DNA from: a virus
Length of the DNA: 20,145 bases
IMG/VR virus record: IMGVR_UViG_3300007734_000429
Location: 1 to 20,145 of that record
Direction: 5' to 3' (one strand)
Within the stretch, counting starts at the first letter, position 1. The number at the start of each line of letters is the position of its first letter. Positions 1,600 through 17,978 of the stretch are shown one piece after another. The notes beneath the pieces were generated by a model. It searched no databases. It was not told the origin of the DNA and saw only the letters and a list, made by a program, of their open reading frames with translations. The position numbers and the translations under genes were made by a program.

Positions 1600-2448
1600 T
1601 TACTTGAACAATCCAGAAACAAATCCACCAGCAGGCGCACCAAGGAAACCGCCAGCAATTTTTCCAATTCCACCAATTATTCCACCTGTTAAAGCAGAAC
1701 TGTTAGCAGCACTAGCAGTGTTTGCCGCAAGTTGTCCTTGGTAATTTTGATTGTAAATGTCTCCTGCATATTGAGATTCAGGGTTAAACAATTGTCCAGG
1801 ATTAAACGATTTAGACGCTCCGGCAAACCCTCCAGTCATACCAAACGATTGGCTAGGACGACCTAAAACTTGTTGGAACACATCTCCATACAATGCTTGA
1901 GACGCACCCATTGCCCCCGTAGCGTATTGCGCTCGTTGTTGTTGCACTCCACTGCCAGCATATGCACTATTAAGAGCTTCTAACATAGCTCCAGAGGCTT
2001 GTCCATTCATACCCCTAGCTTGCAAGCCTGCTCGTGTTTGTTGTTGAACCATGCGCTGTTGATCTGGTGTTAATGCGCTACCTGCCATCATTCCAGAATT
2101 AGCTTGTTGAAGCATTGAATCAACAATTGACGCTTGCATTGGATTTGCTCTTCGTGCCGCTGCCATTGCTTCTGGCCCCAGTCTTGAAATGTCCGCAATG
2201 TCTGAACTTCTAGATTGTGATCGAACTTGAGATTCAACTTGTCCTAATTGCGGAGCATAAAGGTTATACATCTCCATCATTCCAGGAGCAGCTTGTCTCA
2301 TCAAATCCATTTGAAGCTGTTGGTATAATGGAGCGTATTTCAACTCTCCAGCATAACGCTGTGGAGCTAACTCAAGTTGCGCTCTAAGCGTGTCCCTTGT
2401 TTCACCGTAATAATCTCTTGGCGGCGGTGCTTCTACTTTAGTTCCCAT
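1600..2448 (-). CDS. Putative internal virion / DNA-ejection protein with membrane-active C-terminus
   Basis: 282 residues from the ATG at 2448 (MGTKVEAPPPRDYYGETRDT). An upstream in-frame start at 2484 would lie inside the preceding gene. The chosen ATG is one base after that gene's TAA and has AGGA six bases upstream. The middle is helical and rich in Gln, Ala and Met, with AAPGMMEMYNLYAPQLGQVE, then DIADISRLGPEAMAAARRANP and LTPDQQRMVQQQTRAGLQARG. I associate this pattern with a family of virion proteins in short-tailed phages of Gram-negative bacteria. The last 30 residues are a Gly/Ala/Ile/Phe-rich segment with a single lysine (GGIIGGIGKIAGGFLGAPAG onward), resembling membrane-inserting peptides. 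Ejection through the cell envelope is an inference from this tail and from the neighbours. Confidence 0.6.
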   Translation of the reverse strand: MGTKVEAPPPRDYYGETRDTLRAQLELAPQRYAGELKYAPLYQQLQMDLMRQAAPGMMEMYNLYAPQLGQVESQVRSQSRSSDIADISRLGPEAMAAARRANPMQASIVDSMLQQANSGMMAGSALTPDQQRMVQQQTRAGLQARGMNGQASGAMLEALNSAYAGSGVQQQRAQYATGAMGASQALYGDVFQQVLGRPSQSFGMTGGFAGASKSFNPGQLFNPESQYAGDIYNQNYQGQLAANTASAANSSALTGGIIGGIGKIAGGFLGAPAGGFVSGLFK

Positions 2449-2449
2449 A

Positions 2450-2851
2450 TTATTTCCTAGCTTTTTTATAAACCGACATAACATTTTTGTAACGTCTCAT
2501 AGAACCATTTCTCATTCCAACAGATGGCATAACTGCTGATTGAGGATGAGCCAAAAAGAATGTTGCGGCAACAGCCATTGCGTCATTAGGAGAATTGGCA
2601 GCAAATTGATCCCAATACCAATACTTACCATTAGGATCAGTTTTCTGCCAATTAAAATTTACCATCTCTGTGCTATCTTGTTGCCATCCAACAAGGACTG
2701 CACTTACTTCCATTGTCATTAAATTACATACACATTTTAACGTCTTTTGTTCCATGTGGAACATTACGTAATCTTCAAGAGCTTCATCTGTCCAACCAAC
2801 AAAACCTAACGGAAGCTTTTTACGAAGATATTCTGATATGATTTTTATCAT
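2450..2851 (-). CDS. Conserved-looking phage protein of unknown function, 133 aa
   Basis: 133 residues, compact and mixed alpha/beta, with many Trp and Met residues (GFVGWTDEAL, VLVGWQQDS, KYWYWDQFAANSP) and a basic C-terminus (RNGSMRRYKNVMSVYKKARK). It begins with an ATGA overlap with the stop of the preceding fibre-like gene, so translation is probably coupled. T7-like phages have a small GNAT-like protein (gp13) between the tail hub and the large internal proteins. This protein has a similar size and position, and the alternation of strands and helices would allow a GNAT-type fold. I cannot identify the acetyl-CoA binding motif, so that link is only a suggestion. No membrane segment is seen. 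Confidence 0.65.
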   Translation of the reverse strand: MIKIISEYLRKKLPLGFVGWTDEALEDYVMFHMEQKTLKCVCNLMTMEVSAVLVGWQQDSTEMVNFNWQKTDPNGKYWYWDQFAANSPNDAMAVAATFFLAHPQSAVMPSVGMRNGSMRRYKNVMSVYKKARK

Positions 2852-3642
2852 ACAGGAAGTTCTTCTAACGTAATAGCTGGAAGGCTAAAATTTATAAAAT
2901 GTGAATTATACGGATAAATACTGTCTGGCTCCGCAAAAACTCCCACTGCATATTTTAATTCTAAAACAGTGTCTGCATACCCAGTCCTTAAAAACCAACT
3001 ATACGTGTATTTGCCTAAATCACTTGCGTTGTCAATATACTCAATTGCTAAATTGGTACTCCCTTTAGAAACTGCTAAAATGCCAGATCTTAAAAATTTA
3101 GAGTCATTTCCTGAGCTTCCAATTTCAGTAGTATTATTGTTAAATGTTCTTTTTAACACAATGCTGCAGCCATCATAACTTGTGTAAAAGTCAAAATTTG
3201 CGTTAATTAAAATTTTAGAGTTGTTGCGAATTGTGGTTATTGATGAATATAACTCAATTAACGGATATTCGCTGTAACTTATGTTACTTCCACTAGTGTG
3301 TGTAATTTGATCAGCTTTAATTTGAACAATATTTGGTTTCCAATATATATTTGAAACATCAGTGTAAATTCCAGAACTTGCAGCAAGAAAAGCATTGGTA
3401 ATTCCACCAGTTCCTCTTCCAATAACAGAGTTTGCATTTATTGTTGCAATTTTTGGCAATGTAATATTAGTGTCAATAATATCAGTTGTAACAATGGAAC
3501 TTTTTGACAATATTAATGACCCTGAATCAATTGATCCAACAACGCTAACACTTGGTTGAGCAATTAAATTAAGTAATGCTGCGTCAACTTTAACATTATC
3601 GCTTATTTGAATACCTGGAGCTACTGTTACAAAAAGTGGCAT
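2848..3642 (-). CDS. Tail fibre-like protein B (paralogue of the upstream gene), 264 aa
   Basis: 264 residues. The first 108 align without gaps to the neighbouring 255-residue protein, with about 80 of 108 identical by my count. This shared stem contains NLIAQPSVSVVGS, then TLPKIATINANSVIGRGTGG. The latter matches a recurrent motif in phage tail fibres (LxKIAxxSVxGRxxxGxG). The C-terminal half (about 110-264) is beta-rich and differs strongly from the paralogue, but keeps an LKR..TEIGS segment, a YIDNAS..KYTYS segment and the terminal ITLEELPV. That layout resembles C1q/TNF-like jelly-roll tips of fibres. A receptor-binding role is an inference. The ATG at 3642 follows the upstream TAA by three bases (TAAATTATG), with no Shine-Dalgarno sequence. 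Confidence 0.75.
   Translation of the reverse strand: MPLFVTVAPGIQISDNVKVDAALLNLIAQPSVSVVGSIDSGSLILSKSSIVTTDIIDTNITLPKIATINANSVIGRGTGGITNAFLAASSGIYTDVSNIYWKPNIVQIKADQITHTSGSNISYSEYPLIELYSSITTIRNNSKILINANFDFYTSYDGCSIVLKRTFNNNTTEIGSSGNDSKFLRSGILAVSKGSTNLAIEYIDNASDLGKYTYSWFLRTGYADTVLELKYAVGVFAEPDSIYPYNSHFINFSLPAITLEELPV
3533..3587 (-). repeat. 55-base identical repeat in fibre-like gene B
   Basis: Identical to 4304-4358 and in the same orientation. It lies in the shared stem of the two fibre-like paralogues (encodes the LNLIAQPSVSVVGS region). The wider homologous block covers the first 108 codons of both genes. Confidence 0.85.
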
Positions 3643-3645
3643 AAT

Positions 3646-4413
3646 TTACGTTGGCATTTCTTGCAATATAATAGACGACATTCCAAGAGAAATACCACTT
3701 CCAGTTAAATCCAATCTATTTTTGCCTATGCAATATTGAGCACCAGAAGCAAGAGTATATGTATATATAGAAAGAGAATACGTGTGTGTTGCAATTGATC
3801 CAGGCGCATCAAGATAATGTATTTTTATTTGACTAGTCCCTAAAGGTGCTGAAGCAATTCCGTAAGTAGCATTTGTGTAATTCAAATTATTGGCAGCACT
3901 TCCAATTTCAGTTCCATTTCTTTTTAATATAAAACTTAATCCGGTAGGGTTATCTGTAACCATTGTAATTACGCATCTTATTAAAACATTGCTTGTTCTT
4001 GTTGTTGTTATTGGGCAATTAAATGATGTTAGGACTGTTGGAGATGTCCTAAGAGTTGAAATGGTAGCAGCGGCAGTTGGAGCAACTTGAATTTGAACAA
4101 TATTTGGTTTCCAATATATACTTGAAGCATCAGTGTAAATTCCAGAACTTGCAGCAAGAAAAGCATTGCTAATTCCACCAGTTCCCATTCCAATAACAGA
4201 GTTTGCTGTAGCAAGTTCAATTTTTGGCAATGTAATATTAGCGTCAATAATGCTAGAAGTTCCAATAGACCCCGCTCCTAATGTTATTGATCCACCGTCA
4301 ACTGATCCAACAACGCTAACACTTGGTTGAGCAATTAAATTAAGTAATGCTGCGTCAATTAACGTGTTGTTATTTACTTGAACTCCGGGAACTACTGTTG
4401 CAAAAAGTGGCAT
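3646..4413 (-). CDS. Tail fibre-like protein A (paralogue of the downstream gene), 255 aa
   Basis: 255 residues. An N-terminal stem (1-108) carries the repeated-looking segments DGGSITLGAGSIGTSSIIDA and NSVIGMGTGGISNAFLAASS, shared with the next gene. The C-terminal domain (about 110-255) is Thr/Ser/Ile-rich and beta-predicted, with LKRNGTEIGSAA, IHYLDAPGSIATHTYSLSIY and the final SSIILQEMPT. These features fit a trimeric fibre stem plus a jelly-roll tip. There are no enzyme motifs. It follows the tail hub gene by three bases (TAATTTATG), with no Shine-Dalgarno sequence. Its place right after the hub supports a role as a tail-attached adhesin. That it binds a host receptor is inferred and not shown by the sequence. 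Confidence 0.75.
   Translation of the reverse strand: MPLFATVVPGVQVNNNTLIDAALLNLIAQPSVSVVGSVDGGSITLGAGSIGTSSIIDANITLPKIELATANSVIGMGTGGISNAFLAASSGIYTDASSIYWKPNIVQIQVAPTAAATISTLRTSPTVLTSFNCPITTTRTSNVLIRCVITMVTDNPTGLSFILKRNGTEIGSAANNLNYTNATYGIASAPLGTSQIKIHYLDAPGSIATHTYSLSIYTYTLASGAQYCIGKNRLDLTGSGISLGMSSIILQEMPT
4304..4358 (-). repeat. 55-base identical repeat in fibre-like gene A
   Basis: Partner of 3533-3587. Together the stem regions could serve as a recombination platform for exchanging fibre tips. Confidence 0.85.
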
Positions 4414-4416
4414 AAA

Positions 4417-7400
4417 TTAAGAATCTATTTTTCCAAACAATCTAAAAGGAACTCCACGCACTTCGCAAGCTAAAACATCAACGCTTCCTGTTGTGGTGAT
4501 TAGCTTTAATTGAATGCTAGCACTATGTTTTTTTAATCTCGCTTTGTGCAAAAACGATTGTTTAATTTTTAATTTTAAACCGTTTAACCCAAGCTTTAAC
4601 CGATTGGCCCCTGTTGTTAACGAAACAGAATAATCTTCTCTGTAAGGGTTTAAAAAATCATCTTTTGAATTACTAACATCATAATCGCTTGTTCCGTATG
4701 TTAAATATTTTATTTTATTTCTTGTTTCTGGAACAAGTGTTATTTTTTGAATTTCGTTTACTCCGTCAAACAATGCTTCAATGCTGTAAGTTGGATTATT
4801 TGTTAATAGTTCAATACTTACATCTGTCCACTGTTTATAAGCAAGTGTTTTTCCTGAATAGCCTCTAAACTCAACAAGTGTTGCAATTTCTTTTGTGGTT
4901 CCATTAGAAGCCCTATCTACAAGCGATTCCGAATCAAAATATCTAATAAACCCTGCAGAATCAACCCACGCCAAACAATTTTTTTTGTTAATCAATAGTT
5001 TTACCCAGTATTTAGGAATAAGCATATCGCCTTCCCAATATCCTTCCCATTCTTTTAACACAAAATTAAAAACAACAGTTCTAGTGTTTAACCCTTTTAA
5101 AGACGCATTACTTGACAATATTGGAATAGATAAAAAATATCTATTTTCAAAATAAATGCCGCTTGAATTTGAGGCTTTTTGTGGATCTATATCTTTTATA
5201 ATTTCTTCAATTTTTGTAGATAGCGGCATTGTTACAGATTGAGATATTCCAAATTCTGTTTGCTTTAATGAAACAATACCACGTTGCGATAAAAATAAAA
5301 CATCTGATCCTGTTCCAGCAATAGAAAGTGGTGCAACGCATCCATATTCACGAGTTATTTCCGTTAAAACAACTTGCGACAAATCACCTTGAATGTTTGA
5401 AATTGAAAAAATTGATTTTTCTTTAAATATAATTATTGTTGTTGTGTTAAACGGATAAATAGCAACAACATTATCTGATCCAACATTGCTTAATTTAAAC
5501 ACTGAAAGAACTGGAGAATAATGCAATGGGTCTAAAATGTCACTTACTGCCAAATTGTCAGGCCCAAACAAAACTAGCAACCTTCCTTGAAAATAAATTC
5601 CGTCTCTGCCTGTTGGAACTGGCTGAGCATTTGCTCCAAATTTTTTAATTGTTGCAATAACTTGTTGGGTTCCCTTAATGTCAATAAGAGAATTAGGCAT
5701 TTCAAAAACTAAAGGGCTAGCTGATGTTAAAGAACCAGAAACTGAAGCAACTTTTCCGTCACTTATAACAGATGTTAATACCGTTAAAGTTGTATCTGTA
5801 GTAAGATTTCCAGCTCTAATTGCTGGAGGTGAAGTATATCCGCTTCCAGCTTTTAAAACTTTTACAGAATAATTTGACTCTAAAGTTCCTAATGCCCTTG
5901 AGCTTTTAGTTAATGAATCTTCTTGGGCTGATGTTCCAGTCCTGTTTTTGTAAAGACTTAGAGTATTGGAATCAATTGGATAAACGTAAAATGTATAATC
6001 AGATGTAATTTGTAAATCGTCTAACGCATCATCATTGTCAAAACCGTGCCAAAATTCAATGCCTGAAACATTTGAAATAACAACTTTGTCTCCAGCAACA
6101 AATCCGTGATTTGTAACAGTTATTGTGTCTAAAGCAGCATCATATTGACTAATATAATTGGATGCAGGAATACGTTTAAACCCTTGTATTAAAGACGATC
6201 CTGTTACTGTTTGATCAAATGGTTGCATCATGATTGGAGGTGCATCGTTTTCCCAATCATCTACACGTTCGTTAATAGAAGACACTGAAGAATTTTTTTG
6301 AAGTTCAAAAAAATAATTATTGGAAGACACTGTTGAACTGGCTTTAAAAATTAAAGCACTTGTTTGAGACCTGGCATTTGCAGCCGTAGAATGCAGAGAT
6401 ATTCGATTTCCTTGAACATTTGCATAAAATGTTGATATGGAGCTAGCCAAACTTAACGTGCAGTTACCATTTGTTAATCCAGTAATAGCAGATCCACCTT
6501 GCGACAACGATAAACTAAACGTGTCAACATTTGTAAGCAATACAAAATAATTATACCCAACAGTTATTCCAGATCCTGTATACGTTATTATTACAACTCT
6601 ATCTCCAGCAGCAAATCCATGTGCAATTTTTGTAAAAACAGAATTTGAAGATATTACTGCTGTTATGTTTTTATATTCCCACAAAGCTTTTGAATTGCCT
6701 ACTTGCCCAACAGATACTAAATCACCAGTTTCAAAATCTGCCAATGTGTTTAATTTAATATAACCACGTTGAAACGTAACTGGATTTGAAGATAGGTTTA
6801 AAGAGAGATTATAAAAAAAAGCTGAAGTTGGGTTTGCTGTTGTTGATAAATAAAAAGCATTGGAATCTGAAACAGTTACATAATACAAGGTGTTTGCAGC
6901 TACAGGGTTATTTGTTCCAGAAATTGCAACATTTGAATAAATAAAGTCACCAGTTTTAAGTCCGTGATTTGTTGAAGAAAATATTGTAATAAAAAGAGTT
7001 GTGTTATGTGAAACAAAAGTAACTTTTACAGCACCAGCTTCTCCGTTAAAATATGAACGCAAATTTCCAGGTCTCAACAACACAATACTTTCAGCGCATT
7101 GAATAAATTTAACATTGTCGTAAAAATCATATCCGTTTGTTGTTATTTCGTATGGAGGTTGTGAAGGTGAAACAAAAAAAATTCGACCATTTCCACCGTC
7201 ACTTCTGGCTTCATTTACGGCAATTAAAAGACCATCAGTATCATTTGGCGAATAATTATATGGCAAAACGCCTACAATATCAGAAAACCCAACTGTTGAA
7301 TTATAGGTAGCAAGGGAGGTGGTTGTTGAAGAAATTGGCATTAATGTACTTTTGTCTATTACTAAAGTAGTTCCATTATCTGAAACAACGCGAGTTCCAG

Positions 7401-7740
7401 ATTGAATTATTAAATTAGCAGTAGAAGTAGTTCCAAAACGCCATGAAACATCTCCAGTTATAATCCTGTTTGCGGCATGAGGGTAAAGTGTTGCAGAAGC
7501 TCTGGTAAGTGTTTTAACATTAGTAGAAGCTGAGTTAAAATTTCCAGCTACATTTTCTCCCCATACACCACCCCAAACTGGCTCAATAATTCCCCAACGA
7601 TTTGTAATTGCATTGTTATCAAAAATACGATTTACAGCATTTGAAACATATCCGCTTGGAATTAAATGAGGAGCAAGTTTAGAATTAACCCCAACAAAAG
7701 CATTGTCTCCGTCAACTGTTTGCAAAAGATTTGCTGGCAT
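4417..7740 (-). CDS. Large tail hub protein, gp12-like, with FCCH-like insert repeats
   Basis: 1107 residues, the largest protein here. The N-terminus (DGDNAFVGVNSKLAPHLIPS, then GYVSNAVNRIFDN..NRWGI) matches the opening of short-tailed phage hub proteins related to T7 gp12. Residues about 710-900 look like beta-propeller blades: GRLLVLFGPDNLAVSDILDP, IIIFKEKSIFSISNIQGDLS, then REYGCVAPLSIAGTGSDVLF and LSQRGIVSL. Between these lie at least three HGxxxGDxVxx modules (about 248-300, 365-412, 537-598), each ending in a DxNxFxLS-like strand. They resemble the E1 FCCH-type beta domains known from phage tail proteins. A GSGYTSPPAI motif is near 632-641. The gene sits directly after a gp11-like adaptor, as in T7 (11 then 12). 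It would form the lower tail and the DNA channel. The start follows AACAGGTAATAT, a weak AGG site. Confidence 0.8.
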   Translation of the reverse strand: MPANLLQTVDGDNAFVGVNSKLAPHLIPSGYVSNAVNRIFDNNAITNRWGIIEPVWGGVWGENVAGNFNSASTNVKTLTRASATLYPHAANRIITGDVSWRFGTTSTANLIIQSGTRVVSDNGTTLVIDKSTLMPISSTTTSLATYNSTVGFSDIVGVLPYNYSPNDTDGLLIAVNEARSDGGNGRIFFVSPSQPPYEITTNGYDFYDNVKFIQCAESIVLLRPGNLRSYFNGEAGAVKVTFVSHNTTLFITIFSSTNHGLKTGDFIYSNVAISGTNNPVAANTLYYVTVSDSNAFYLSTTANPTSAFFYNLSLNLSSNPVTFQRGYIKLNTLADFETGDLVSVGQVGNSKALWEYKNITAVISSNSVFTKIAHGFAAGDRVVIITYTGSGITVGYNYFVLLTNVDTFSLSLSQGGSAITGLTNGNCTLSLASSISTFYANVQGNRISLHSTAANARSQTSALIFKASSTVSSNNYFFELQKNSSVSSINERVDDWENDAPPIMMQPFDQTVTGSSLIQGFKRIPASNYISQYDAALDTITVTNHGFVAGDKVVISNVSGIEFWHGFDNDDALDDLQITSDYTFYVYPIDSNTLSLYKNRTGTSAQEDSLTKSSRALGTLESNYSVKVLKAGSGYTSPPAIRAGNLTTDTTLTVLTSVISDGKVASVSGSLTSASPLVFEMPNSLIDIKGTQQVIATIKKFGANAQPVPTGRDGIYFQGRLLVLFGPDNLAVSDILDPLHYSPVLSVFKLSNVGSDNVVAIYPFNTTTIIIFKEKSIFSISNIQGDLSQVVLTEITREYGCVAPLSIAGTGSDVLFLSQRGIVSLKQTEFGISQSVTMPLSTKIEEIIKDIDPQKASNSSGIYFENRYFLSIPILSSNASLKGLNTRTVVFNFVLKEWEGYWEGDMLIPKYWVKLLINKKNCLAWVDSAGFIRYFDSESLVDRASNGTTKEIATLVEFRGYSGKTLAYKQWTDVSIELLTNNPTYSIEALFDGVNEIQKITLVPETRNKIKYLTYGTSDYDVSNSKDDFLNPYREDYSVSLTTGANRLKLGLNGLKLKIKQSFLHKARLKKHSASIQLKLITTTGSVDVLACEVRGVPFRLFGKIDS

Positions 7741-7743
7741 ATA

Positions 7744-8652
7744 TTACCTGTTAAACACTTCAATTTGATTAAATGCAGGGCTTTCTCTTACTGTTTTGTT
7801 TACTTCTTCAACAAGAACGGCAGCAGCAGCGTTTGTAAATTCAATACCCATTTCAATTTTTCCGTCAACCGTTAACATTTTACCACCTGCAAAATATGTG
7901 CAATAATTAGAAAAACGATAAGGAATAGTTGTAACAGCATAACCAAGATCAGTAATTAAAGGTGGAGATTGTGTTCGTTTTAACCACACATAAGGAATTT
8001 CGTCGTCAACTACAATTCCTTCACTTGTGTAAGAATAATTAACATTTGTATCTGTAACTAAAAGGCGAGGGTCAAAATGAGTAATGCTTAAAACTTCACC
8101 TATTTCATTTGTTCTTACTACTCCTTGAGCGTCATGAGTTAAACTTAAAGTTCTGTAAAACGGAATTAAAACAGACCAATAAGTTGGGTTACTAGGATAA
8201 TTTCCACCGCCAGTTGCGAGAACACATTGGTAGTAAAGTTCCGTTGGTGCATAAAATACTACATTGCCCGCAATATATGCTGATGCATTGCTATAATTTG
8301 AAGCATTAGTCCATTCGTTTTTAGCTTCAGCCCATTTACTGGCATTTAAAATGCCGTTTGTTGCAGGGTCAATACCGCTTCCACTAGTTCCTACACGCTG
8401 GTAATATTTTGCTTCAGTTGTAAAATAAACAAAGTTACCAACATTGTAATTTGTAGCATTGCCATAAGGTGAAGCAAAATATTCCTTGGAATACTCACGC
8501 ATTTCAGGCCAATCATAAAACTCCCAAGCTTGACGCAATGCTAGTCCAATATATGTTCTAAACATCGCAGATTCTTCAACTGTTGGTGGGTAAACACGCC
8601 CAGTTAATTCACACGATTGCTGTAATACCGTACTGTAAAGAGATGTTCTCAT
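7744..8652 (-). CDS. Head-tail adaptor-like protein, copy 2, with chitin-binding-like repeats
   Basis: 302 residues. The N-terminal helical part (LQQSCELTGRVYPPTVEESA, then LRQAWEFYDWPEMREYS) and the C-terminal helical part (IPYRFSNYCTYFAGGKMLTV, DGKIEMGIEF, AAAAVLVEEVNK) together resemble a T7 gp11-type tubular adaptor of about 190 residues. Between them are two tandem modules, YNVGNFVYFTTEAKYYQ (about 69-85) and YIAGNVVFYAPTELYYQ, with the Y-x-x-G-x-x-V-x(6)-YY pattern of CBM5/12 (ChtBD3) sugar-binding modules. It immediately precedes the gp12-like hub, the usual place for a gp11-like protein. It is a paralogue of the gene at 9994-9122. Its ATG overlaps the TGA of the lipoprotein gene (ATGA). 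The adaptor role is inferred from order and shape. Confidence 0.75.
   Translation of the reverse strand: MRTSLYSTVLQQSCELTGRVYPPTVEESAMFRTYIGLALRQAWEFYDWPEMREYSKEYFASPYGNATNYNVGNFVYFTTEAKYYQRVGTSGSGIDPATNGILNASKWAEAKNEWTNASNYSNASAYIAGNVVFYAPTELYYQCVLATGGGNYPSNPTYWSVLIPFYRTLSLTHDAQGVVRTNEIGEVLSITHFDPRLLVTDTNVNYSYTSEGIVVDDEIPYVWLKRTQSPPLITDLGYAVTTIPYRFSNYCTYFAGGKMLTVDGKIEMGIEFTNAAAAVLVEEVNKTVRESPAFNQIEVFNR
8489..8637 (-). repeat. 149-base direct repeat, copy in adaptor gene 2
   Basis: This stretch encodes residues of the N-terminal helical part of the adaptor-like protein. It matches 9828-9976 at 146 of 149 positions. The three differences are all A/G transitions on the coding strand; two are silent and one changes Val to Ile. 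It indicates a recent duplication or gene conversion. Confidence 0.9.
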
Positions 8653-8894
8653 GGATTGCTACGAGGCAAAGCATACCATCCTTCTGGGATTTGTATACGG
8701 TTCTTAGATCGAATTATTTGACCGGATGCGTCTTTGACCCAAACCCTGGAATAAACGCTGTCAGCAAGCCTTACAGGCTCACCGTGAAGCACATAGACAA
8801 CTCTAGTCGCGCAACCTTGGATCAGAAGCATTGATCCGATCATTAAGATCTTTGCGAAGCTCTGGATCTGGCGTTGCGTTAATAGATGTAACAT
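8649..8894 (-). CDS. Small lipoprotein, candidate outer-membrane spanin (o-spanin)
   Basis: 81 residues from the ATG at 8894. A lipoprotein signal is visible: an N-region with Arg8 and Lys15, a hydrophobic run ILMIGSMLLIQ, then Gly27-Cys28, where lipidation would occur. The lipobox is IQGC, with an unusual Gln at -2. The mature part is about 54 residues: RVVYVLHGEPVRLADSVYSR, then a VWVKDASG strand, then IPEGWYALP. This matches small phage lipoproteins I associate with lysis regions. It begins inside the 51-residue ORF in another frame and overlaps it by 92 bases. That resembles Rz/Rz1 nesting, in which the lipoprotein partner starts within the first gene. Its GC content is higher than that of its surroundings. 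A spanin role is plausible; a plain virion or superinfection-exclusion lipoprotein is the alternative. Confidence 0.7.
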   Translation of the reverse strand: MLHLLTQRQIQSFAKILMIGSMLLIQGCATRVVYVLHGEPVRLADSVYSRVWVKDASGQIIRSKNRIQIPEGWYALPRSNP

Positions 8895-8958
8895 CCGTTT
8901 TTGCTTCTGCTGTTAGCCATTTTAAAACGGCTGTAATCAGTTTACTAAACCAATCCAT
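8803..8958 (-). CDS. 51-aa small protein overlapping the lipoprotein gene
   Basis: 51 residues from an ATG at 8958 that shares one base with the TAA of the holin-like gene (TAATG). The first 16 residues (MDWFSKLITAVLKWLT) form an amphipathic or weakly hydrophobic helix. A polar region follows, with DPELRKDLNDRINASDPRLR, a pattern seen in short phage proteins next to lysis genes. Its last 92 bases overlap the lipoprotein gene in a different frame, and its stop is TAG. It could be a very short inner-membrane or peripheral partner of the lipoprotein, but it lacks the long periplasmic coiled coil of a typical i-spanin. Overlapping translation on both sides supports its being a real gene. Confidence 0.6.
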   Translation of the reverse strand: MDWFSKLITAVLKWLTAEAKTDVTSINATPDPELRKDLNDRINASDPRLRD

Positions 8959-9125
8959 TAACTGTCCTTAGCAATAATAAGTCCAACACCTGCCGTAATA
9001 GCAGCAAGGACAAGAGGAATATCAACATTTGTAGCTGCGTTACCGTCAAAAATTGCAACAAGAGCACCACCAATAGCAACGCAAATTGCACCAACACCAG
9101 CAAGACTAGTTTTCCAATTGTTCAT
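8958..9125 (-). CDS. Holin-like small membrane protein, 55 aa
   Basis: 55 residues, beginning MNNWKTSLAGVGAICVAIGG. Two hydrophobic segments are visible: about 7-26 (LAGVGAICVAIGGALVAIF) and about 36-51 (IPLVLAAITAGVGLIIA), separated by the short loop DGNAATNVD and ending in KDS. The MxNWKTSLxG opening and the GLIIAKD ending match a widespread family of two-helix small phage proteins that are often annotated as holins. The ATG overlaps the TGA of the preceding adaptor gene (ATGA), and the stop overlaps the next start (TAATG). It therefore belongs to a tightly coupled cassette with the 51-residue protein and the lipoprotein. No endolysin is in the window, so the lysis role rests on topology and company. 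Confidence 0.65.
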   Translation of the reverse strand: MNNWKTSLAGVGAICVAIGGALVAIFDGNAATNVDIPLVLAAITAGVGLIIAKDS

Positions 9126-9994
9126 ACTTTTTTTGTTTTAGAAACTTTAAGAATTTCTTTTGCAAGAATTCCCGAAGCCGTTGTTATAAGTTCAGCACCC
9201 ATTTCTCCTTTTCCGTCAACTGTTAACATTCTTCCACCTGCAAAATAAGAACAAAAATCAGAAAAACGATAAGGAACAGTAACAACACTAACGCCAAGAT
9301 CAGTGCTTAAAGGTGGCGACAATGTTCGCTTTAACCACACGGCAGAAATGTCATTGTCAATAACAATGCCAGCACTTGAATAATTGTAATTTACAACAGA
9401 TGTTTCAGTAATAAACAATCTGGGATCATTTTCCGTAATGCTTAAAACATCGCCAATTTCATTTGTTCTTAGTGTTCCGCCTGAATCAGTTGTTAAATTA
9501 ATAGTTCGCTGAAAAACAATTAATTTAGCAAATTTTGTAGTATCCGTTGGGAGGGTTCCTGCTGTTGGAGTTGCAGTCACATAATAATAATTTTTATTAG
9601 CCTCATAAAACACAATGTTTGCAACAGAGTAACTTGTTGCAGCAGAATAAATTAAAGCTGTTGGCCATTTATCTGCAGCAAGAACCCAATTGACTCCAAC
9701 AGTTGGAGTAGTCCCAGCAGCAATAGAGCTAATTTTTTGGTAATATTTTGTGTCTAAGTAATAATATACAATACTTCCAACGGAATAAGTAACTGTAGGG
9801 TCGTAATATGGAGCAAAATATTCTCTGGAATACTCACGCATTTCAGGCCAATCATAAAACTCCCAAGCTTGACGCAATGCTAGTCCAATATATGTCCTAA
9901 ACATCGCAGATTCTTCAATTGTTGGTGGGTAAACACGCCCAGTTAATTCACACGATTGTTGTAATACCGTACTGTAGTTTACTAATCTGCTCAT
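9122..9994 (-). CDS. Head-tail adaptor-like protein, copy 1, with chitin-binding-like repeats
   Basis: 290 residues, a paralogue of the 302-residue protein at 8652-7744. Residues about 8-57 are almost identical (LTGRVYPPTIEESAMFRTYI, LALRQAWEFYDWPEMREYS). The C-terminal scaffold is also shared (VPYRFSDFCSYFAGGRMLTV, DGKGEMGAEL). The middle has diverged but keeps two modules, YSVGSIVYYYLDTKYYQK and YSVANIVFYEANKNYYYV, of the CBM5/12-like Y-x-x-G/A-x-x-V pattern. It differs from copy 2 by a basic C-terminal tail (KEILKVSKTKKV). It starts 5 bases after the upstream stop, behind a purine-rich AAAGAAAGTAA stretch. A second adaptor, a decorated head-tail collar protein or a diversified adhesin are all possible. 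Which copy fills the gp11-like site cannot be read from the sequence. Confidence 0.72.
   Translation of the reverse strand: MSRLVNYSTVLQQSCELTGRVYPPTIEESAMFRTYIGLALRQAWEFYDWPEMREYSREYFAPYYDPTVTYSVGSIVYYYLDTKYYQKISSIAAGTTPTVGVNWVLAADKWPTALIYSAATSYSVANIVFYEANKNYYYVTATPTAGTLPTDTTKFAKLIVFQRTINLTTDSGGTLRTNEIGDVLSITENDPRLFITETSVVNYNYSSAGIVIDNDISAVWLKRTLSPPLSTDLGVSVVTVPYRFSDFCSYFAGGRMLTVDGKGEMGAELITTASGILAKEILKVSKTKKV
9828..9976 (-). repeat. 149-base direct repeat, copy in adaptor gene 1
   Basis: Partner of the repeat at 8489-8637, in the same orientation, with starts 1339 bases apart. Recombination between the two would delete the holin-like, 51-residue and lipoprotein genes and leave one chimeric adaptor gene. 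Confidence 0.9.
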
Positions 9995-9999
9995 ATTTT

Positions 10000-10185
10000 T
10001 TACTTTCTTTTATTTGTCAGCAATCTATATAGGAAAATCATTGAAATAACAGCTCCAATAATACCTGAGATTGCTCCACCAATTGATCCGCCAATTTGAA
10101 GATAATGCAGAAATGCCCCCCCTAATCCAAAACCCGCACCTCCAATACTATTTACAACAAGATTAGACGTTTCATTTGTGATCAT
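10000..10185 (-). CDS. Small glycine-rich membrane protein, 61 aa
   Basis: 61 residues from the ATG at 10185 (MITNETSNLVVNSIGGAGFG). A start 27 bases further upstream would overlap the preceding gene, whereas this one gives the recurrent TAATTATG junction. A polar N-terminus is followed by a Gly-rich region (GGAGFGLGGAFLHYLQIGGS) and a hydrophobic helix (GGAISGIIGAVISMIFLYRL) with a basic end (LTNKRK). The last part resembles the C-terminal helix of GlsB/YeaQ-type small membrane proteins. It could be a second holin or antiholin, since it lies one gene upstream of the lysis-like cassette, or an unrelated membrane peptide. Function is not determined. Confidence 0.6.
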   Translation of the reverse strand: MITNETSNLVVNSIGGAGFGLGGAFLHYLQIGGSIGGAISGIIGAVISMIFLYRLLTNKRK

Positions 10186-10187
10186 AA

Positions 10188-10550
10188 TTAAGCCCAGGGC
10201 AATGGTAAACAAGCAACTACAGGAGGCAATTCTTGCTGCTTAATGTTGTCTAGTAAATACAATTCGCATTCTTCTTTGTTAACCCCAGAAGCCCAGACCC
10301 AACTTAAAACGGTTTCTTCGTTAAGGTCAGCGTAAACAATAAAACTGTCAGGATCCGGCGGTTGAAAAGTAATGCTGTTATAAAGCGTTGATTGAAAATT
10401 GCCTTTAGTGGCGGTAACTCGCCAGCAAAGTCCAATGACAACTTTTTCAAGGGCACCACTTACCATTTGTGATGTTAGCTGTTCAATCTTCCAGGAAATA
10501 ACAGCTTTAGGTTCAACAACTGGAACAATAACTGAAGTTTTTGTTGGCAT
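10188..10550 (-). CDS. Small soluble phage protein ending in PPVV..LPW, 120 aa
   Basis: 120 residues with no signal peptide. The order of features is a beta strand with VVIGLCWRVTATKGNFQSTL, then a PPDPDSFIVYADLNEETVLS segment followed by WVWASGV, then a helix and the C-terminal tail QQELPPVVACLPLPWA. This arrangement (W-x-x-T-A near residue 45, PDPxxFIxYxDLxEExVLxW, and a final PPVVxxxLPW) matches a widespread small protein family in tailed phages whose function is not known to me. It lies two bases after the LamG protein gene, with the TAATTATG junction. In other phages, relatives sit near tail fibre or tail assembly genes, which fits here. No enzyme residues are recognised. Confidence 0.65.
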   Translation of the reverse strand: MPTKTSVIVPVVEPKAVISWKIEQLTSQMVSGALEKVVIGLCWRVTATKGNFQSTLYNSITFQPPDPDSFIVYADLNEETVLSWVWASGVNKEECELYLLDNIKQQELPPVVACLPLPWA

Positions 10551-10552
10551 AA

Positions 10553-12697
10553 TTAACTCGTTGTAATTGTTTTAATTGCACCAGTAGGTGTTCGCAATTT
10601 TAAAGACGTTGTAGTGTCAGTTCCATCCCAATAAACATAAGCAAGACCAGTGGCTCCTGCTGAAGAACTTCCTGCTGCAAATCCAAGAGCATTGTGAACA
10701 GTATCAGTATTAGTCACAGAACCGATAAGCACACTCCTTTGAGCATTGCCTGTTCCTGAAGTTATACTAACAGCAGCAACATTGGCTAAATTAGAAATGT
10801 TAGAATCGTTATTGCAATTAATCCTAACGTAATTATCCGTAAGAATAGTAGGCCCAGATGATGTTTCAATGTTATTTCTTCCGCTAACTGCATCTCCGTG
10901 ATACCTGCCAGATACATTGTTTTGAGCGTTATAAAGCGATGATTGAGGTCTTCCGCTTGGATTGGTTGAAGTGGGTGTTAGCGTTGAAGCAACCCCGATA
11001 GAATTTGGATTACCTTCAACGTAAGCAGACGACTGGGAACTAATTACTGTTCCTGTAGTATCATATTGACCGTTGTAGGTAGAAATTAGAGAAGTTGCAT
11101 TATCTTGAAACCTTTCATCGGAAAGATTAGGATTAAGAATTGCTCCAACCCTTGAAATCCTTAAATCAGTAAATGTAAATGATTGCGTATTAGCTGTTGT
11201 TGCAGAAAACGAAGTATTGCTTGTTGACGAAGTAACGTAAAGATTTTGAGTTTTAGCCTCAAATTCGTTAAAGAAATATCCAGTTGCACCATGAGCAATT
11301 GCAGTGCCTGTTATGGAATCTGTGTTTGGAAAAATTGGAGCAAATGGATTAGGACTTCCTGTATTTTGCCCGCTAGAAAAAATAAAATAAGATGCTTCTC
11401 CTGTATTGTTTGCAAACTTTGCACCAACACGATATCTTTTTCCAACTATAAGAGCACCTGCAGTATCGTTAAATGTTCGATATACTGACAATGAACCTGT
11501 TGCTGTGCTTTTTTGGGCTATATTACTCGACGAAATTACATCGAAAAATACATTTCCAGTAACGGTTGCGTTAGTTGGTGATGACCCGATAGTGGGTGTA
11601 ACACTAAACGATGTTGGCGTTGAATCTCTTACAAAATAAGTCCCAGCGGCAATCCCTCCTGAAGTAATTGTAACGCTGTCGCCATTAAGTAATGGATTTG
11701 GAGCTGTTACTGTAATAACTGGACTAAGATTTACTACCGTTCCTGTAGCGGCAGCAGTAATGGTTACGTTGTTAGTATTTGAAGCAGTAGAACTTGATGG
11801 AATTCCGTTCCACACTGTTGGATTGCCGTTAATATCAAAATTGATTCGATTGCCGCTACCATCAGCAATAGCCCTAGCCCATTGATCTGAATCATCAATT
11901 CCAAAAGCGTTAACTTGTTCAATGTCAGCCAAACTTAACGCACGACTGTAAACTGCAAAATTATAAAAAGTTCCCGACCACGGAACAGAAATAGTCCCAC
12001 CAGCAGAACCTACGCTTGTGTAAAGATTTCTAAGATAATGTGTAAGTGGAACGCTGTAATCTGGGGGAACAGGAGCATTACTAACACTTTGAGTAAGGAC
12101 TTCGCCATTTACATAAAACACCATGCTTGTTGATGTTTTAACAAGCGCAAAATTAATAATTTTGCCAGCATATTTACTTGAAAAATTAGCAGGTACAACT
12201 TGTCGATAAGTGTCTGCCCTAGTATTATACGATGGATTACTGTTTGTAGTAATTGTTGTAACTAACAGATTTCCAAGATTACCACTTGCATCAACCCCAA
12301 CACTAACTTCTAATGAATATTCACCTACTGGCGGAGTATTAGATGATGTTGAATCTGGTTTAAAAGCAAACAACCCTTTGCTTCCGTAAGCATTTCCGCT
12401 AAATGCAGGCATTTTAAACTTGGCGTAAACCGTAAAATCGCCATATCCAATTAATGCGTTTGCAGTAGTGTTATATTGGATTTTTTGACCTGGTGTTATA
12501 CCGTCAAAATATACACCTTTAGCAATTCCACTAGCTGCAACTACTGACGGCCCTTCAAGGATGTTCCGTTGAAAATCTTTTGTCGTGATTTTCGTAGTTG
12601 TTGCAGCACTAGCATCGTAAAGCGGAAGCAAATCCGCATTCAAATCAATAGTTGCACTTGTTAAAGCTGTTAACTCCGCAATTGTTGAATTAGCCAT
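10553..12697 (-). CDS. Tail fibre / decoration protein with LamG-type lectin domain, 714 aa
   Basis: 714 residues. The N-terminus (IAELTALTSATIDLNADLLP, LYDASAATTTKITTKDF) matches the attachment region of many phage fibre proteins. Residues about 57-262 look like a concanavalin A-like (LamG) sandwich: GVYFDGITPGQKIQY, GDFTVYAKFKMP, LVKTSTSMVFYVNGEV and the diagnostic end FYNFAVYSRALSLADIEQVN. Residues about 325-380 contain LLNGDSVTITSGGIAAGTYF and FSVTPTIG, an FCCH-like module as in the tail hub. The C-terminal part is Ser/Thr/Asn-rich and beta-predicted, ending in RTPTGAIKTITTS. It probably binds carbohydrate on the cell surface, as a fibre or a head decoration; the position between head and tail genes allows either. 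The start follows TAAACTTATG. Confidence 0.75.
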   Translation of the reverse strand: MANSTIAELTALTSATIDLNADLLPLYDASAATTTKITTKDFQRNILEGPSVVAASGIAKGVYFDGITPGQKIQYNTTANALIGYGDFTVYAKFKMPAFSGNAYGSKGLFAFKPDSTSSNTPPVGEYSLEVSVGVDASGNLGNLLVTTITTNSNPSYNTRADTYRQVVPANFSSKYAGKIINFALVKTSTSMVFYVNGEVLTQSVSNAPVPPDYSVPLTHYLRNLYTSVGSAGGTISVPWSGTFYNFAVYSRALSLADIEQVNAFGIDDSDQWARAIADGSGNRINFDINGNPTVWNGIPSSSTASNTNNVTITAAATGTVVNLSPVITVTAPNPLLNGDSVTITSGGIAAGTYFVRDSTPTSFSVTPTIGSSPTNATVTGNVFFDVISSSNIAQKSTATGSLSVYRTFNDTAGALIVGKRYRVGAKFANNTGEASYFIFSSGQNTGSPNPFAPIFPNTDSITGTAIAHGATGYFFNEFEAKTQNLYVTSSTSNTSFSATTANTQSFTFTDLRISRVGAILNPNLSDERFQDNATSLISTYNGQYDTTGTVISSQSSAYVEGNPNSIGVASTLTPTSTNPSGRPQSSLYNAQNNVSGRYHGDAVSGRNNIETSSGPTILTDNYVRINCNNDSNISNLANVAAVSITSGTGNAQRSVLIGSVTNTDTVHNALGFAAGSSSAGATGLAYVYWDGTDTTTSLKLRTPTGAIKTITTS

Positions 12698-12701
12698 AAG
12701 T

Positions 12702-12845
12702 TTACAAAATCAAAAAATCTACTCCGTTTATCAGCAAAAAACTCGCAGGGTCAGCACTAGCTACAATAATGAACGATGGAAGCCTAATCGATGTTCCATC
12801 AGCTCCAATCTTTACTCCACGCAATCCAATTGTTAACGGCCCCAT
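12702..12845 (-). CDS. Small 47-aa hypothetical protein
   Basis: A 47-residue ORF from the ATG at 12845 to TAA at 12702 that fits tightly between its neighbours: 6 bases after the preceding stop and 4 bases before the next start. It reads MGPLTIGLRGVKIGADGTSI, then RLPSFIIVASADPASFLLIN and GVDFLIL. It is short, beta-predicted and hydrophobic at the end, with no clear membrane helix or signal. I do not recognise a family. The packing, the TAAACTTATG junction downstream and the absence of any other candidate in this stretch support a real gene, perhaps a minor structural protein or a head-tail stop protein. Its start codon lies in one arm of a 7-base inverted repeat. Confidence 0.55.
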   Translation of the reverse strand: MGPLTIGLRGVKIGADGTSIRLPSFIIVASADPASFLLINGVDFLIL

Positions 12846-12857
12846 AACACGTTATGG
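12842..12857 (-). promoter_or_regulatory. Inverted repeat spanning a stop and a start codon
   Basis: CCATAAC and GTTATGG are perfectly inverted, separated by AC. In the minus-strand RNA one arm holds the TAA of the 85-residue gene and the other the ATG of the 47-residue gene. A small hairpin (CCATAA, loop CGTG, TTATGG) would hide the start until ribosomes arrive at the stop, which suggests translational coupling. The stem is only 6 bp and AT-rich, so it could be chance. Confidence 0.35.
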
Positions 12858-13109
12858 TCTGCGGTTGTAAATAATATAAACGCCAGTAGTGGAAACAATC
12901 GTTGTCCACGCTCCTGGCACATAAGTTCCTGCAAGAACCAATGAATCAGCAGCACCTGTCGTAGTAATATTTCCAACACAACTAGCCCACGTAATTGTGC
13001 AATCTGTAATAGTTAAAAATCCTTGATAACAACCGTTAGTAGTTTGTGCTCCAGATTTAAGGATCCCACCATATTCTCCACTTGCACCTCTTGTTGCTCC
13101 AATATTCAT
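12852..13109 (-). CDS. Small beta-rich head or tail protein, 85 aa
   Basis: 85 residues, rich in Gly, Thr and Ser, with alternating hydrophobic residues: GASGEYGGILKSGAQTTNGC, then YQGFLTITDCTITWASC, then SLVLAGTYVPGAWTTIVSTT, ending GVYIIYNRRP. Three Cys residues fall in the first two thirds. The pattern predicts a small beta-sandwich with no signal peptide. Its location two genes after the capsid protein would suit a capsid decoration or head-completion protein, but no family is recognised. It starts three bases after the preceding stop (TAACTTATG), with no Shine-Dalgarno sequence. Confidence 0.6.
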   Translation of the reverse strand: MNIGATRGASGEYGGILKSGAQTTNGCYQGFLTITDCTITWASCVGNITTTGAADSLVLAGTYVPGAWTTIVSTTGVYIIYNRRP

Positions 13110-13112
13110 AAG

Positions 13113-13481
13113 TTAAAGCTCTCCGTAATTCTTGCTGTATTTTTTAGCACTAGTAAATCCAAATTGCAACTTAGTTCCGCCGCATTTAACGCGAACTTCT
13201 GGGTTGTCACGTTCAACCTCTTTTAAAAATCCACTATCACGCCAGCAGTTATACCCATATTTCTGCCCCCAAGTGTGATACATACCATTATCAATACGCA
13301 TCCTAAGACGACCTAATCCTTCAACGCTTTTATGATCTGCTCTATTAACTTTTTCCATCCTAGCGTGGTTAATAGCAGATGTCGCCATTTCTTTTGCGTG
13401 ACCATCTTTAAGCTCTTTAATTACTGCCTCACGCAATTCTTGAGGCATATCATCACCAATCTCTGTTATAATGTTACTCAT
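13113..13481 (-). CDS. Conserved-looking phage protein downstream of capsid gene, 122 aa
   Basis: 122 residues, charged and mainly helical in the first half (MPQELREAVIKELKDGHAKE, then HARMEKVNRADHKSVEGLGR). A mixed segment follows, with MYHTWGQKYGYNCWRDSGFL and KEVERDNPEVRVKCGGTKLQ, and a basic C-terminus. No membrane segment or known catalytic motif is seen. The Trp/Tyr/Cys-rich centre looks conserved, and I associate similar sequences with head gene clusters of uncharacterised phages, but without a known function. Its ATG lies only six bases after a strong 13-bp hairpin that follows the capsid gene, so its expression may be lowered relative to the capsid protein. Confidence 0.65.
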   Translation of the reverse strand: MSNIITEIGDDMPQELREAVIKELKDGHAKEMATSAINHARMEKVNRADHKSVEGLGRLRMRIDNGMYHTWGQKYGYNCWRDSGFLKEVERDNPEVRVKCGGTKLQFGFTSAKKYSKNYGEL

Positions 13482-13487
13482 AGAAAG

Positions 13488-13518
13488 TGGTGGGAGCAGC
13501 CAATCGCTACTCCCACCA
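13488..13518 (-). terminator. Strong 13-bp hairpin after the major capsid gene
   Basis: In the minus-strand RNA, TGGTGGGAGTAGC pairs with GCTGCTCCCACCA around the loop GATTG: 13 continuous pairs, one of them a U-G wobble, with a GC-rich base. It is followed by CUUUCU and then the AUG of the next gene. The U-run is short, so it may be a partial terminator that lets some transcripts through, or an RNA-processing or mRNA-stabilising hairpin for the abundant capsid message. Confidence 0.7.
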
Positions 13519-13529
13519 TTGATTAAGAA

Positions 13530-14591
13530 TTACGCTGTTGCGTTAAACATACCAAACCCTGCTGGATTTTTTACAACTAATCCAGCAATAGCTTGAATTA
13601 ATTTAATAGGACCACCGCCAGCATCAGGAAGGTCTTTGACTTCTGGCAATTTAGCATAACGGATTTCTAGCATATCAGATGGAATAACATAACCTTTATG
13701 TGGAACAGCCACAAAAGCAGCACCATTTGCATTGTTTGTTACAAATCCACCAATAAACACATCGGGTTGAATCAATAGTCGTCCAAAATCCCCTTCAAAA
13801 ACGTCAACAGAAGATTTGTAAGTAGCATCACCTAGTTCCTTGTTAAACGTGCGAATAGCAGTAGCAGTATTACCAAGTGTTGCACTAATAGTAGGCCCAA
13901 TTTGCTTTGCATCAGCTAAATTTGTCATTGCACGACGAAGTGTAGTGCCGCAAATCATGTCGTAATCTCGAATAGTTCCAGTGTTAGAATAAATAGCACC
14001 CAAAAGATTTTGAACTGTAGTTTCTGTAAGGCTTGCGGTTGCAGTGGTGTCTAAAGATGCTCCAAAATTTAGAGGAGCTTTTCCAACAGTAGTTGCAGCA
14101 GGTGTGGTTTGAAGCGTATAACCCAATGATGCTGTAACGCTAGTTGTTGCACTTAGGTCTGGAGTAGTAGCAACAGATGCTGGCGAAGCATTTGTTAGGG
14201 ATAGGAATGTGCATTCCATATCTCGCTTAAGTTCCACAAGACGTTTTGCAATACCTTTAGCCGTTTCACTAGAAACTCCGGCAACATTGGAGGTTTCAGC
14301 AATAAACCCAGTGCGATGATTGCGGCGAAATACTTGAGCGTAATTGCTCATACGCGCTCGACTTGCTGAAGCGTTTGTGTGATCAGCACTAGCAACATCA
14401 ACACCATCACCAATATTTGACATTACACTAGCAGAATAGTTGTCTACCTGCCAACTAAACGTCATGTTTCCAATGTCTTTCCCCTTGGGAGCCATTGAAA
14501 CAAACGGCGTAGACTTTGCGTCTACAACTGCTACATAATCTGCTAACTCTTCACGAACACCAATCTGTGTAAAAGAACCTAATAGTGGCAT
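13530..14591 (-). CDS. Major capsid protein, SU10-like (HK97 fold)
   Basis: 353 residues. The N-terminus (EELADYVAVVDAKSTPFVSM, then APKGKDIGNMTFSWQVDNYS) and the segment MSNYAQVFRRNHRTGFIAET, followed by SETAKGIAKRLVELKRDME (about 81-126), match the SU10-type major capsid family (DUF5309-like). In that family the NY.Q.F....SG and K.L.ELKRD.E motifs mark the HK97-fold core. A Thr/Ala/Ser-rich insert lies about 130-190. The C-terminal half has RDYDMICGTTLRRAM, DVFEGDFGRLLIQPDVFIG and MLEIRYAKLPEVKDLPDAGG. It directly follows the scaffold-like gene, as expected for a capsid gene. AAAGGGA lies about ten bases upstream of the ATG, one of the better ribosome sites in the window, consistent with high expression. 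No prohead protease is visible nearby. Confidence 0.88.
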   Translation of the reverse strand: MPLLGSFTQIGVREELADYVAVVDAKSTPFVSMAPKGKDIGNMTFSWQVDNYSASVMSNIGDGVDVASADHTNASASRARMSNYAQVFRRNHRTGFIAETSNVAGVSSETAKGIAKRLVELKRDMECTFLSLTNASPASVATTPDLSATTSVTASLGYTLQTTPAATTVGKAPLNFGASLDTTATASLTETTVQNLLGAIYSNTGTIRDYDMICGTTLRRAMTNLADAKQIGPTISATLGNTATAIRTFNKELGDATYKSSVDVFEGDFGRLLIQPDVFIGGFVTNNANGAAFVAVPHKGYVIPSDMLEIRYAKLPEVKDLPDAGGGPIKLIQAIAGLVVKNPAGFGMFNATA

Positions 14592-14595
14592 AAAA

Positions 14596-15603
14596 TTACA
14601 TCCCTTTCAATAAATGAGCCAATTCATCTACTCCCCCTGAACTTAAAAAGCGTTTGCGACCGAATTCTGCTGTTGCTTTATCTTTATCCACTCGCCCCTG
14701 GCTTGCGCTAGGAGTTGATGGTTGCTTAGGTGCAACTTTAATCTGTGCGGTTTTAATGCCAGATTTCTTTGCTGCTTCCATTCTCATTTTGCGTCCCATA
14801 ATAAAATCTCCAACCAATATTTGGTAGTCTGGCATGTTAGCAATTGTTGGCAATTGCCGGAGCACATGTTGTGCTTCAGTGTATTCCACTGATGCCCGAT
14901 CCTTCCAAAACGGATATAGTTTTTCTACGGTAGGACGAATTTGATTATGTTCCTGAATAAATTGAGCGCGTTGAGGGATTTGCATATCAATTGCATCTTC
15001 AACTTTACGACGAATTGATTTGATGTCCTCATACGAATATTCTTTTCCATTCAGTTCAGCACCGTCCGAATTGTCTTCGCACCACCTTTTTAACTCACGC
15101 GCTTTTTGATATTCGGTTTGCAATTTTTGCATGTCCCAAACTTCACTAAACGGGTTGTTAGCATGTTGCTCAACATACGGAGGTTGTTCCTCAAGCTTTT
15201 GCAACTTAGATTTCGTTTCATTCAACTCTTGTTCTAGTGTTGATAGCCTTTCAGTAGCTTCTTTTTTAGCCCTTGTAAGCTTATCAATACGTTTTTGAAC
15301 ACCAGTTGATTCTTCGGAATCTACAGGTTCTTCCGCTTCTTCTTCTTTATCTTCAGAAAGAACAGACTCAGGAGACTCGTCCTGATTCTCAACCGTTTCT
15401 TCAGGCGGCTGATCCTCTGCAACTTCTTGCTCTTCTGCATCCGCAGCAGCAGGAAGTTTTTCTTCAACAGGTTCCGAGTTAAAGAGTTTACTCTCTAACA
15501 ATTTACTCAAAGCCAACTCGTCGAAGACAATTGGATTCAAGTTTACTTCTGACTCCGTGTTTTTAATGGGGTTCGCTTCCCCTTTATTGGATGTAACGGC
15601 CAT
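14596..15603 (-). CDS. Putative capsid scaffold protein, 335 aa
   Basis: 335 residues from the ATG at 15603 (MAVTSNKGEANPIKN). A TTG six codons upstream is less likely, and AGGGA lies about ten bases before the chosen ATG. Residues about 40-100 are strongly acidic (EEQEVAEDQPPEETVENQDE and so on). They are followed by a coiled coil (RIDKLTRAKKEATERLSTLE, QELNETKSKLQKLEEQ, about 105-142) and a helical, Trp-containing middle. The C-terminus is basic (KSGIKTAQIKVAPKQPS.., GRKRFLSSGG..LAHLLKGM), typical of scaffold ends that contact the coat protein. An acidic middle with a basic C-terminal helix, directly upstream of the capsid gene, is the classic scaffold arrangement in short-tailed phages. 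It lacks a visible protease motif, so it is called a scaffold only. Confidence 0.75.
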   Translation of the reverse strand: MAVTSNKGEANPIKNTESEVNLNPIVFDELALSKLLESKLFNSEPVEEKLPAAADAEEQEVAEDQPPEETVENQDESPESVLSEDKEEEAEEPVDSEESTGVQKRIDKLTRAKKEATERLSTLEQELNETKSKLQKLEEQPPYVEQHANNPFSEVWDMQKLQTEYQKARELKRWCEDNSDGAELNGKEYSYEDIKSIRRKVEDAIDMQIPQRAQFIQEHNQIRPTVEKLYPFWKDRASVEYTEAQHVLRQLPTIANMPDYQILVGDFIMGRKMRMEAAKKSGIKTAQIKVAPKQPSTPSASQGRVDKDKATAEFGRKRFLSSGGVDELAHLLKGM

Positions 15604-15672
15604 GCTATTTATTCCCTGCAAGTTGGGTTTCTAACACCAGTGTTTACACAAACACAGAAACATGATTAAAAC
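15604..15672 (-). promoter_or_regulatory. 69-base leader with stem-loop upstream of scaffold gene
   Basis: This is the longest gap between the genes. In the minus-strand RNA it can fold as GTGTTT-GTGT-AAACAC (6 bp, 4-base loop; plus-strand 15640-15655). An outer GTTTC/GAAAC pair (15657-15661 with 15627-15631) adds to the stem, with an 8-base bulge on one side. An 11-codon mini-ORF (MFLCLCKHWC) starts at 15663. No convincing -35/-10 pair is seen. It could be a processing site or leader that sets the dose of scaffold and capsid; the stem itself is weak. Confidence 0.35.
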
Positions 15673-15903: not shown

Positions 15904-15907
15904 ATTA

Positions 15908-17971: not shown

Positions 17972-17978
17972 AAAATTC

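Follow-up and report, generated by a model that had tools for sequence, protein, structure and literature searches.

Adaptors of the T7 gp11 type, such as those of cyanophage A4, Carin1, GP4, KHP30, N4 and SU10, are proteins of ~180–240 aa in which a beta middle is flanked by helices at the N- and C-terminus, and their genes are located directly before the nozzle/tail gene. The CBM5/12 chitin-binding domain (ChiC/ChiB type) is a small beta domain known from phage adsorption proteins. Among lysis genes, Phage_holin_10 (PF23987), the family of Pam3 gp28, comprises proteins of ~55–65 aa with two hydrophobic stretches and a charged C-terminus. In the Rz/Rz1 spanins of lambda, T7 and P2, a small lipoprotein is encoded downstream of a holin-like gene and its gene overlaps the preceding one out of frame, where the i-spanin requires an N-terminal TM domain (PMC6139136).

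We have analysed a short-tailed uncultured phage of IMG/VR, record IMGVR_UViG_3300007734_000429 (~20 kb), in which two adaptor genes occur. The window hereafter means the whole stretch of 20,145 nt, and the functions named below are all read from gene context and predicted fold. Compared with the T7 gp11-type systems, the adaptor gene before the tail gene and the predicted helices around a beta middle are held in common. However, this phage has two adaptor gene copies instead of one, its adaptors are longer (~300 aa, with two carbohydrate-binding-like inserts), and the sequence identity is as low as 7–14%.

The operon is on the minus strand. It starts at the left border of the module with a DUF7936 protein (10188..10550; Pfam PF25590, E 6.7e-17), which has the same place in relatives, and continues with TM61 (10000..10185), the second membrane protein of the module. 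Then follow adaptor A (9122..9994, 290 aa), the two-helix membrane protein TM55 (8958..9125, 55 aa), the amphipathic small protein p51 (8803..8958, 51 aa), a lipoprotein (8649..8894), adaptor B (7744..8652, 302 aa) and a nozzle-type tail protein (4417..7740, 1107 aa), which comes directly after the adaptor as in relatives. Adaptor A and TM55 are joined by an ATGA overlap at 9122–9125, TM55 and p51 by TAATG at 8958, and the lipoprotein and adaptor B by ATGA at 8649–8652; p51 and the lipoprotein overlap out of frame by 92 nt (8803–8894). For the stretch from adaptor A to adaptor B, the initial annotation of this region had given the same order and joints, and its coordinates, where tested, all hold, as does the length of the overlap. 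It had also placed the small genes and the adaptors within the tail operon, and the gene order agrees. Its gene list was nevertheless incomplete, since TM61, a module member directly upstream of adaptor A, had been omitted.

In the collections searched there is one close relative, the record IMGVR_UViG_3300022305_000892 (L001), which is ~94% identical to the window phage from the packaging genes to TM61. In this strain TM61 is followed directly by TM55 with an ATGA overlap, and then by p51, the lipoprotein, a single adaptor and the tail gene. Adaptor A is absent, and the one adaptor present is orthologous to B (81% aa identity). As the closest strain has an intact module without A, adaptor A is the extra gene, lying between the genes of two membrane proteins.

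The wider group shows the same picture. Every locus fetched with an adaptor alignment has one adaptor (80/80), and so does every whole record examined (18/18). Of the 80 loci, 76 extend far enough upstream to be informative, and in 75 of these the lipoprotein comes before the adaptor. When loci were retrieved through the major head protein, a recurring order was found, namely DUF7936, a small soluble protein, TM56, TM55, p57, the overlapping lipoprotein, a gene of 81–90 aa, one adaptor and the tail gene, where the TM56 gene occupies the place of TM61 in the window. A scan of IMG/VR with TM55 gave at least 578 relatives, and nearly all of the 80 that were kept have p57-like and lipoprotein genes alongside. 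When annotated phages were searched at nucleotide and at protein level, no relative came up besides one weak tail match, and no A-type adaptor was found in IMG/VR when searching from the A protein. TM55, p51 and the lipoprotein thus form an old conserved module of an aquatic podovirus group, standing before a single adaptor in nearly all members. Since the module is upstream of one adaptor throughout the relatives, it is ancestral in the group, and its presence does not depend on an adaptor having been duplicated. As a separate observation, the 81–90-aa MINYKG protein (phrog_7595; L021:14144–14389 and equivalents) lies between the lipoprotein and the adaptor in most relatives, and it is missing at that place in the window phage and L001.

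These results bear on the origin proposed initially, in which the lysis genes had entered with, or had caused, a duplication of the adaptor gene. The comparison of related genomes suggested for it has now been made. The module turns out to be near universal and the second adaptor is absent from every relative sampled; nor do the relatives carry pairs of dissimilar adaptors, which had been named as the contrary outcome, but one adaptor each. The direction of the event is therefore to be corrected: an adaptor was inserted in the probable lysis module, and no lysis genes were inserted into an adaptor.

The two adaptor genes are homologous, as had been recognised, with 58% identity at protein level and 68% identity overall at gene level. 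The shared tract (9828..9976 in A and 8489..8637 in B, minus strand) was measured at exactly the reported 149 nt with 3 mismatches. It is located within a longer block of 239 nt at 85% identity, and a second repeat block covers the 3' gene parts (241 nt at 75%). At protein level, A and B are most alike in the N-terminal part (91% identity), followed by the beta part (64%), the C-terminal helices (54%) and the inserts (32–33%). For residues 8–58, dS between A and B is 0.10, while for the remainder dS is 1.04 and dN is 0.45. An identity tract like this was reached in 0 of 5000 codon shuffles of the A–B alignment, so that it is not due to chance. Between B and the adaptor of L001 the pattern is reversed, the tract having a dS of 1.77 and the middle part one of 0.20. 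Judged from these substitution levels, the 149-nt repeat is a later tract of conversion or recombination (~150–165 nt) between long-diverged genes, and no sign of a fresh duplication. Taken together, these values indicate that, in the lineage of the window phage, one of the two genes received its tract from the other. As B departs from its L001 orthologue exactly in the tract, a transfer from A to B would be the simpler reading; alternatively, the tract may have been replaced in L001. No match was found in IMG/VR for a 26-base piece of the tract.

Overall, we consider it moderately probable that adaptor A is an old paralogue that was added to the old module and whose tract was homogenised later, with TM55 acting as a holin and with both adaptors bearing glycan-binding-like inserts. 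The second adaptor gene sits inside the module, between TM61 and TM55, and since A is joined to TM55 by ATGA, the operon stays coupled. The age of the paralogue is seen from a dS of ~1 outside the repeat, the 5' parts of A and B having been homogenised afterwards. Adaptor A may have been acquired through recombination with a sister phage outside the sample, or it may have been resident and lost from the near strain; in either case it is an old sister copy, and the timing of its arrival is estimated from one close relative. In a tree of the scaffold (outside the tract and the inserts), A and B group with the adaptor of L001 at 100/100, and within this clade A falls outside B and L001 with weak support (81/60). 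The tree of the insert region gives A a very long branch.

The second of these routes, a duplication that took place long ago in a common ancestor of L001 and the window phage, followed by an exact loss of A in L001 and without any gain in the window phage, is a serious though less favoured possibility. The position of A as sister to B and L001 in the scaffold tree is in its favour, and nt 691–780 of the L001 adaptor match A at 75/90 positions and B at 67/90, possibly a trace of past contact. However, this putative trace is small, and since every other sampled relative has one adaptor, a gain is more parsimonious at the level of the group. Our search of the literature on adaptor duplication in phages found nothing relevant.

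As for the small genes, the evidence comes mainly from the slot before p57 and the lipoprotein. Among distinct loci, this slot holds a TM55-like protein in 106 cases and a Phage_holin_10-like protein in 20; none has both, and 6 have neither. Eight of the Phage_holin_10 slot proteins were confirmed, with Pfam scores of 60–65 against a cut-off of 27. TM55 resembles this family in its slot, in its length, in its two hydrophobic stretches (hydropathy peaks of 2.3 and 2.5, a holin-like layout of a small two-segment protein; alignment A1) and in its charged C-terminus, but it has no detectable sequence relation to the family and matches no holin model. Unrelated genes that exchange at one place usually share a role. 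By this analogy TM55 is most likely a holin, a role that we regard as quite probable. Of the six remaining loci, L103 and L209 have TM55-like proteins elsewhere than at the positions covered by the filter, and L014, L195, L251 and L235 carry a holin-type protein beside a TM55-like protein; the match to the holin family PHROG 2359 was confirmed in L014 and L251. In loci of the L014 type, a TM55-like protein of 60 aa adjoins the PHROG holin, so two membrane proteins can occur together in the slot.

Assignment of TM55 itself to Phage_holin_10 was considered and rejected (hhalign probability 0.7%, no Pfam match). No family match was obtained for TM55 in Pfam and PHROG, nor for its relative in Pfam, and scans of the small proteins of the window against PHROG and Pfam gave nothing usable. 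A probable holin role can thus be offered for a small family with at least 578 IMG/VR relatives and no annotation in the libraries searched. In addition, L176, L177, L178 and L002, which are phage-like contigs of other types, have TM55, the lipoprotein and an overlapping p51-like frame. In L002 and L177, these genes are preceded by a membrane protein whose tail is coiled-coil-like, with a weak Rz-like PHROG match in L002 (E 0.003).

The lipoprotein gene agrees with the Rz/Rz1 spanins in being small, in lying downstream of a holin-like gene and in overlapping the preceding gene out of frame. An overlapping frame is present in 65 of 66 distinct lipoprotein loci, and in the protein the Cys is nearly invariant and the C-terminus, GWYxLP, is conserved. 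On the other hand, it differs from them in not being proline-rich, in an upstream partner without TM helix and in a lipobox off consensus: this is IQGC in the window and mostly CLGC in relatives, against the o-spanin pattern [LVI][ASTVI][GAS]C. Deviating o-spanin lipoboxes such as LNGC and AWAC have been reported (PMC6139136). The structure model of the lipoprotein (pLDDT 72.7, pTM 0.38) is too uncertain for a fold search. From these sequence features, the lipoprotein could be an o-spanin. The maximum 17-residue hydropathy of p51 is 0.77 (median of its relatives: 0.46), with no TM segment. A classical Rz/Rz1 label is not supported for the pair, because p51 lacks the TM domain of an i-spanin.

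The small genes probably make up a lysis module, since known holin families are found in the slot of TM55 in relatives. The cassette of lysis genes recognised initially is thus retained as a module, while its interpretation as an Rz/Rz1 pair is not supported. In the proposed mechanism, TM55 would be the holin, the lipoprotein would act as an o-spanin-like outer-membrane partner, and the muralytic enzyme would be encoded elsewhere. No endolysin was found next to the module, and in MAG contigs with relatives of the module the neighbours are other genes, with no recognised adjacent endolysin. In three relatives an SLT-like candidate endolysin lies ~19 kb downstream, just under the Pfam cut-off, in a region that the window does not reach. 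In L209, a 146-aa protein with a Cys-Asp-Asp / His pattern (L209:2966–3406), possibly a lytic enzyme, and a small Cys-containing lipoprotein-like ORF are found between the TM55-like gene and the lipoprotein, with no family match.

The small genes might instead serve another purpose, for example as a membrane/lipoprotein set for superinfection exclusion or envelope stress in the tail operon. The lack of a TM helix in p51, the unusual IQGC lipobox, the helix and beta strands predicted at low confidence for the lipoprotein, and the missing endolysin nearby would all suit this reading. We nevertheless consider it rather unlikely, as two recognised holin families take this position in relatives, one of them strictly alternating with TM55, and as the module, unlike most exclusion genes, belongs to the structural operon and is found almost throughout the group.

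Returning to adaptor A, its presence could also be an artefact, if pieces of two co-existing strains had been joined in assembly through the 149-nt shared stretch. The record was assembled without known reads, the stretch is so short that an assembler could be misled, and the adaptor/tail region varies between strains. But both junctions of A, with TM61 and with TM55, are outside the repeat and retain a precise ATGA overlap, the reading frame of A runs unbroken through 290 codons, and joining at the repeat would still require a real molecule with the 3' part of A before TM55, so that we find a chimera improbable. The original proposal of a removable cassette that came with, or caused, the duplication is hardly tenable: although near-identical direct repeats flank three genes and make a deletion physically possible, the module stands before a single adaptor in nearly all relatives including the closest strain, the divergence of A and B long predates the repeat tract, and the IMG/VR searches gave no supporting evidence in the form of a deletion product (module lost, hybrid adaptor).

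The AlphaFold model of adaptor B is of moderate quality (pLDDT 73.5, pTM 0.51). It aligns with the adaptors of T7, A4, Carin1, GP4 and KHP30 at Z 9.8–12 (VIA-align) over residues 1–293, i.e., most of the chain; Foldseek alone gave weak matches. The predicted structure of B thus matches the T7 gp11-type fold, and A is assigned to it through homology to B. Adaptor B, directly upstream of the 1107-aa tail gene as the adaptor is in nearly all relatives, is the resident copy and the orthologue of their single adaptor, and adaptor A is not so placed.

The two CBM5/12-like inserts are at residues 59–164 in B (8161..8478, minus strand) and, by alignment to these, at residues 60–160 in A (9515..9817, minus strand). 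In the model of B, residues ~115–165 superpose on CBM5/12 chitin-binding domains with an rmsd of 1.0–2.0 Å over ~46 residues, at Z 6–7.4 (below 8) and 16–27% identity, and a profile match to chitinase A1 is weak (E 0.92). This structural match refers to the second insert; the first has a similar aromatic pattern and is assigned by motif alone. Compared with known CBM5/12, the domain here would be inserted in a predicted adaptor ring protein. More distant adaptors (254–256 aa) are ~50 residues shorter in the insert region. The differences between A and B are mainly within the inserts (32–33% identity, against 54–91% elsewhere). If the models are right, this is a case of a duplicated ring protein in which the carbohydrate-binding-like inserts differ and the assembly part has been made alike. 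In PMC9128512, carbohydrate-binding domains in structural tail proteins are described as helping adsorption, for instance the CBM-bearing evoDit proteins of Bacillus cereus phages.

A and B could both take the portal-facing ring position, with different glycan-binding surfaces and in mixed or alternative rings, and the shared tract might keep the ring-forming N-terminal helices compatible. It is a tentative idea, which we think doubtful in its full form, that the head-to-tail ring is built from two paralogues with differing glycan-binding decorations and a conversion-matched ring part, and that TM55 represents an unrecognised, very common holin family of aquatic phages. If true, the two-paralogue ring would be a system of virion-level diversity at the adaptor and not at the fibres.

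Some further observations were made in the tail region. Residues 756–853 of the tail protein (4417..7740) match phrog_5107, called amidase, at 1e-8; this label is probably misleading, the protein being a tail protein by its position. The post-tail (fibre-like) gene is present in tandem copies at 2848–3642 and 3646–4413, which are 82–93% alike in blocks, and relatives that have this gene carry one copy. Together with the second adaptor, this makes two duplicated tail-region genes in the window phage. Compared with L005 over 2443–20024, the window is ~94% identical in the head/packaging genes and strongly divergent in the adaptor/tail/fibre region, and at 2443–2862 the identity is again 99%, i.e., a mosaic.
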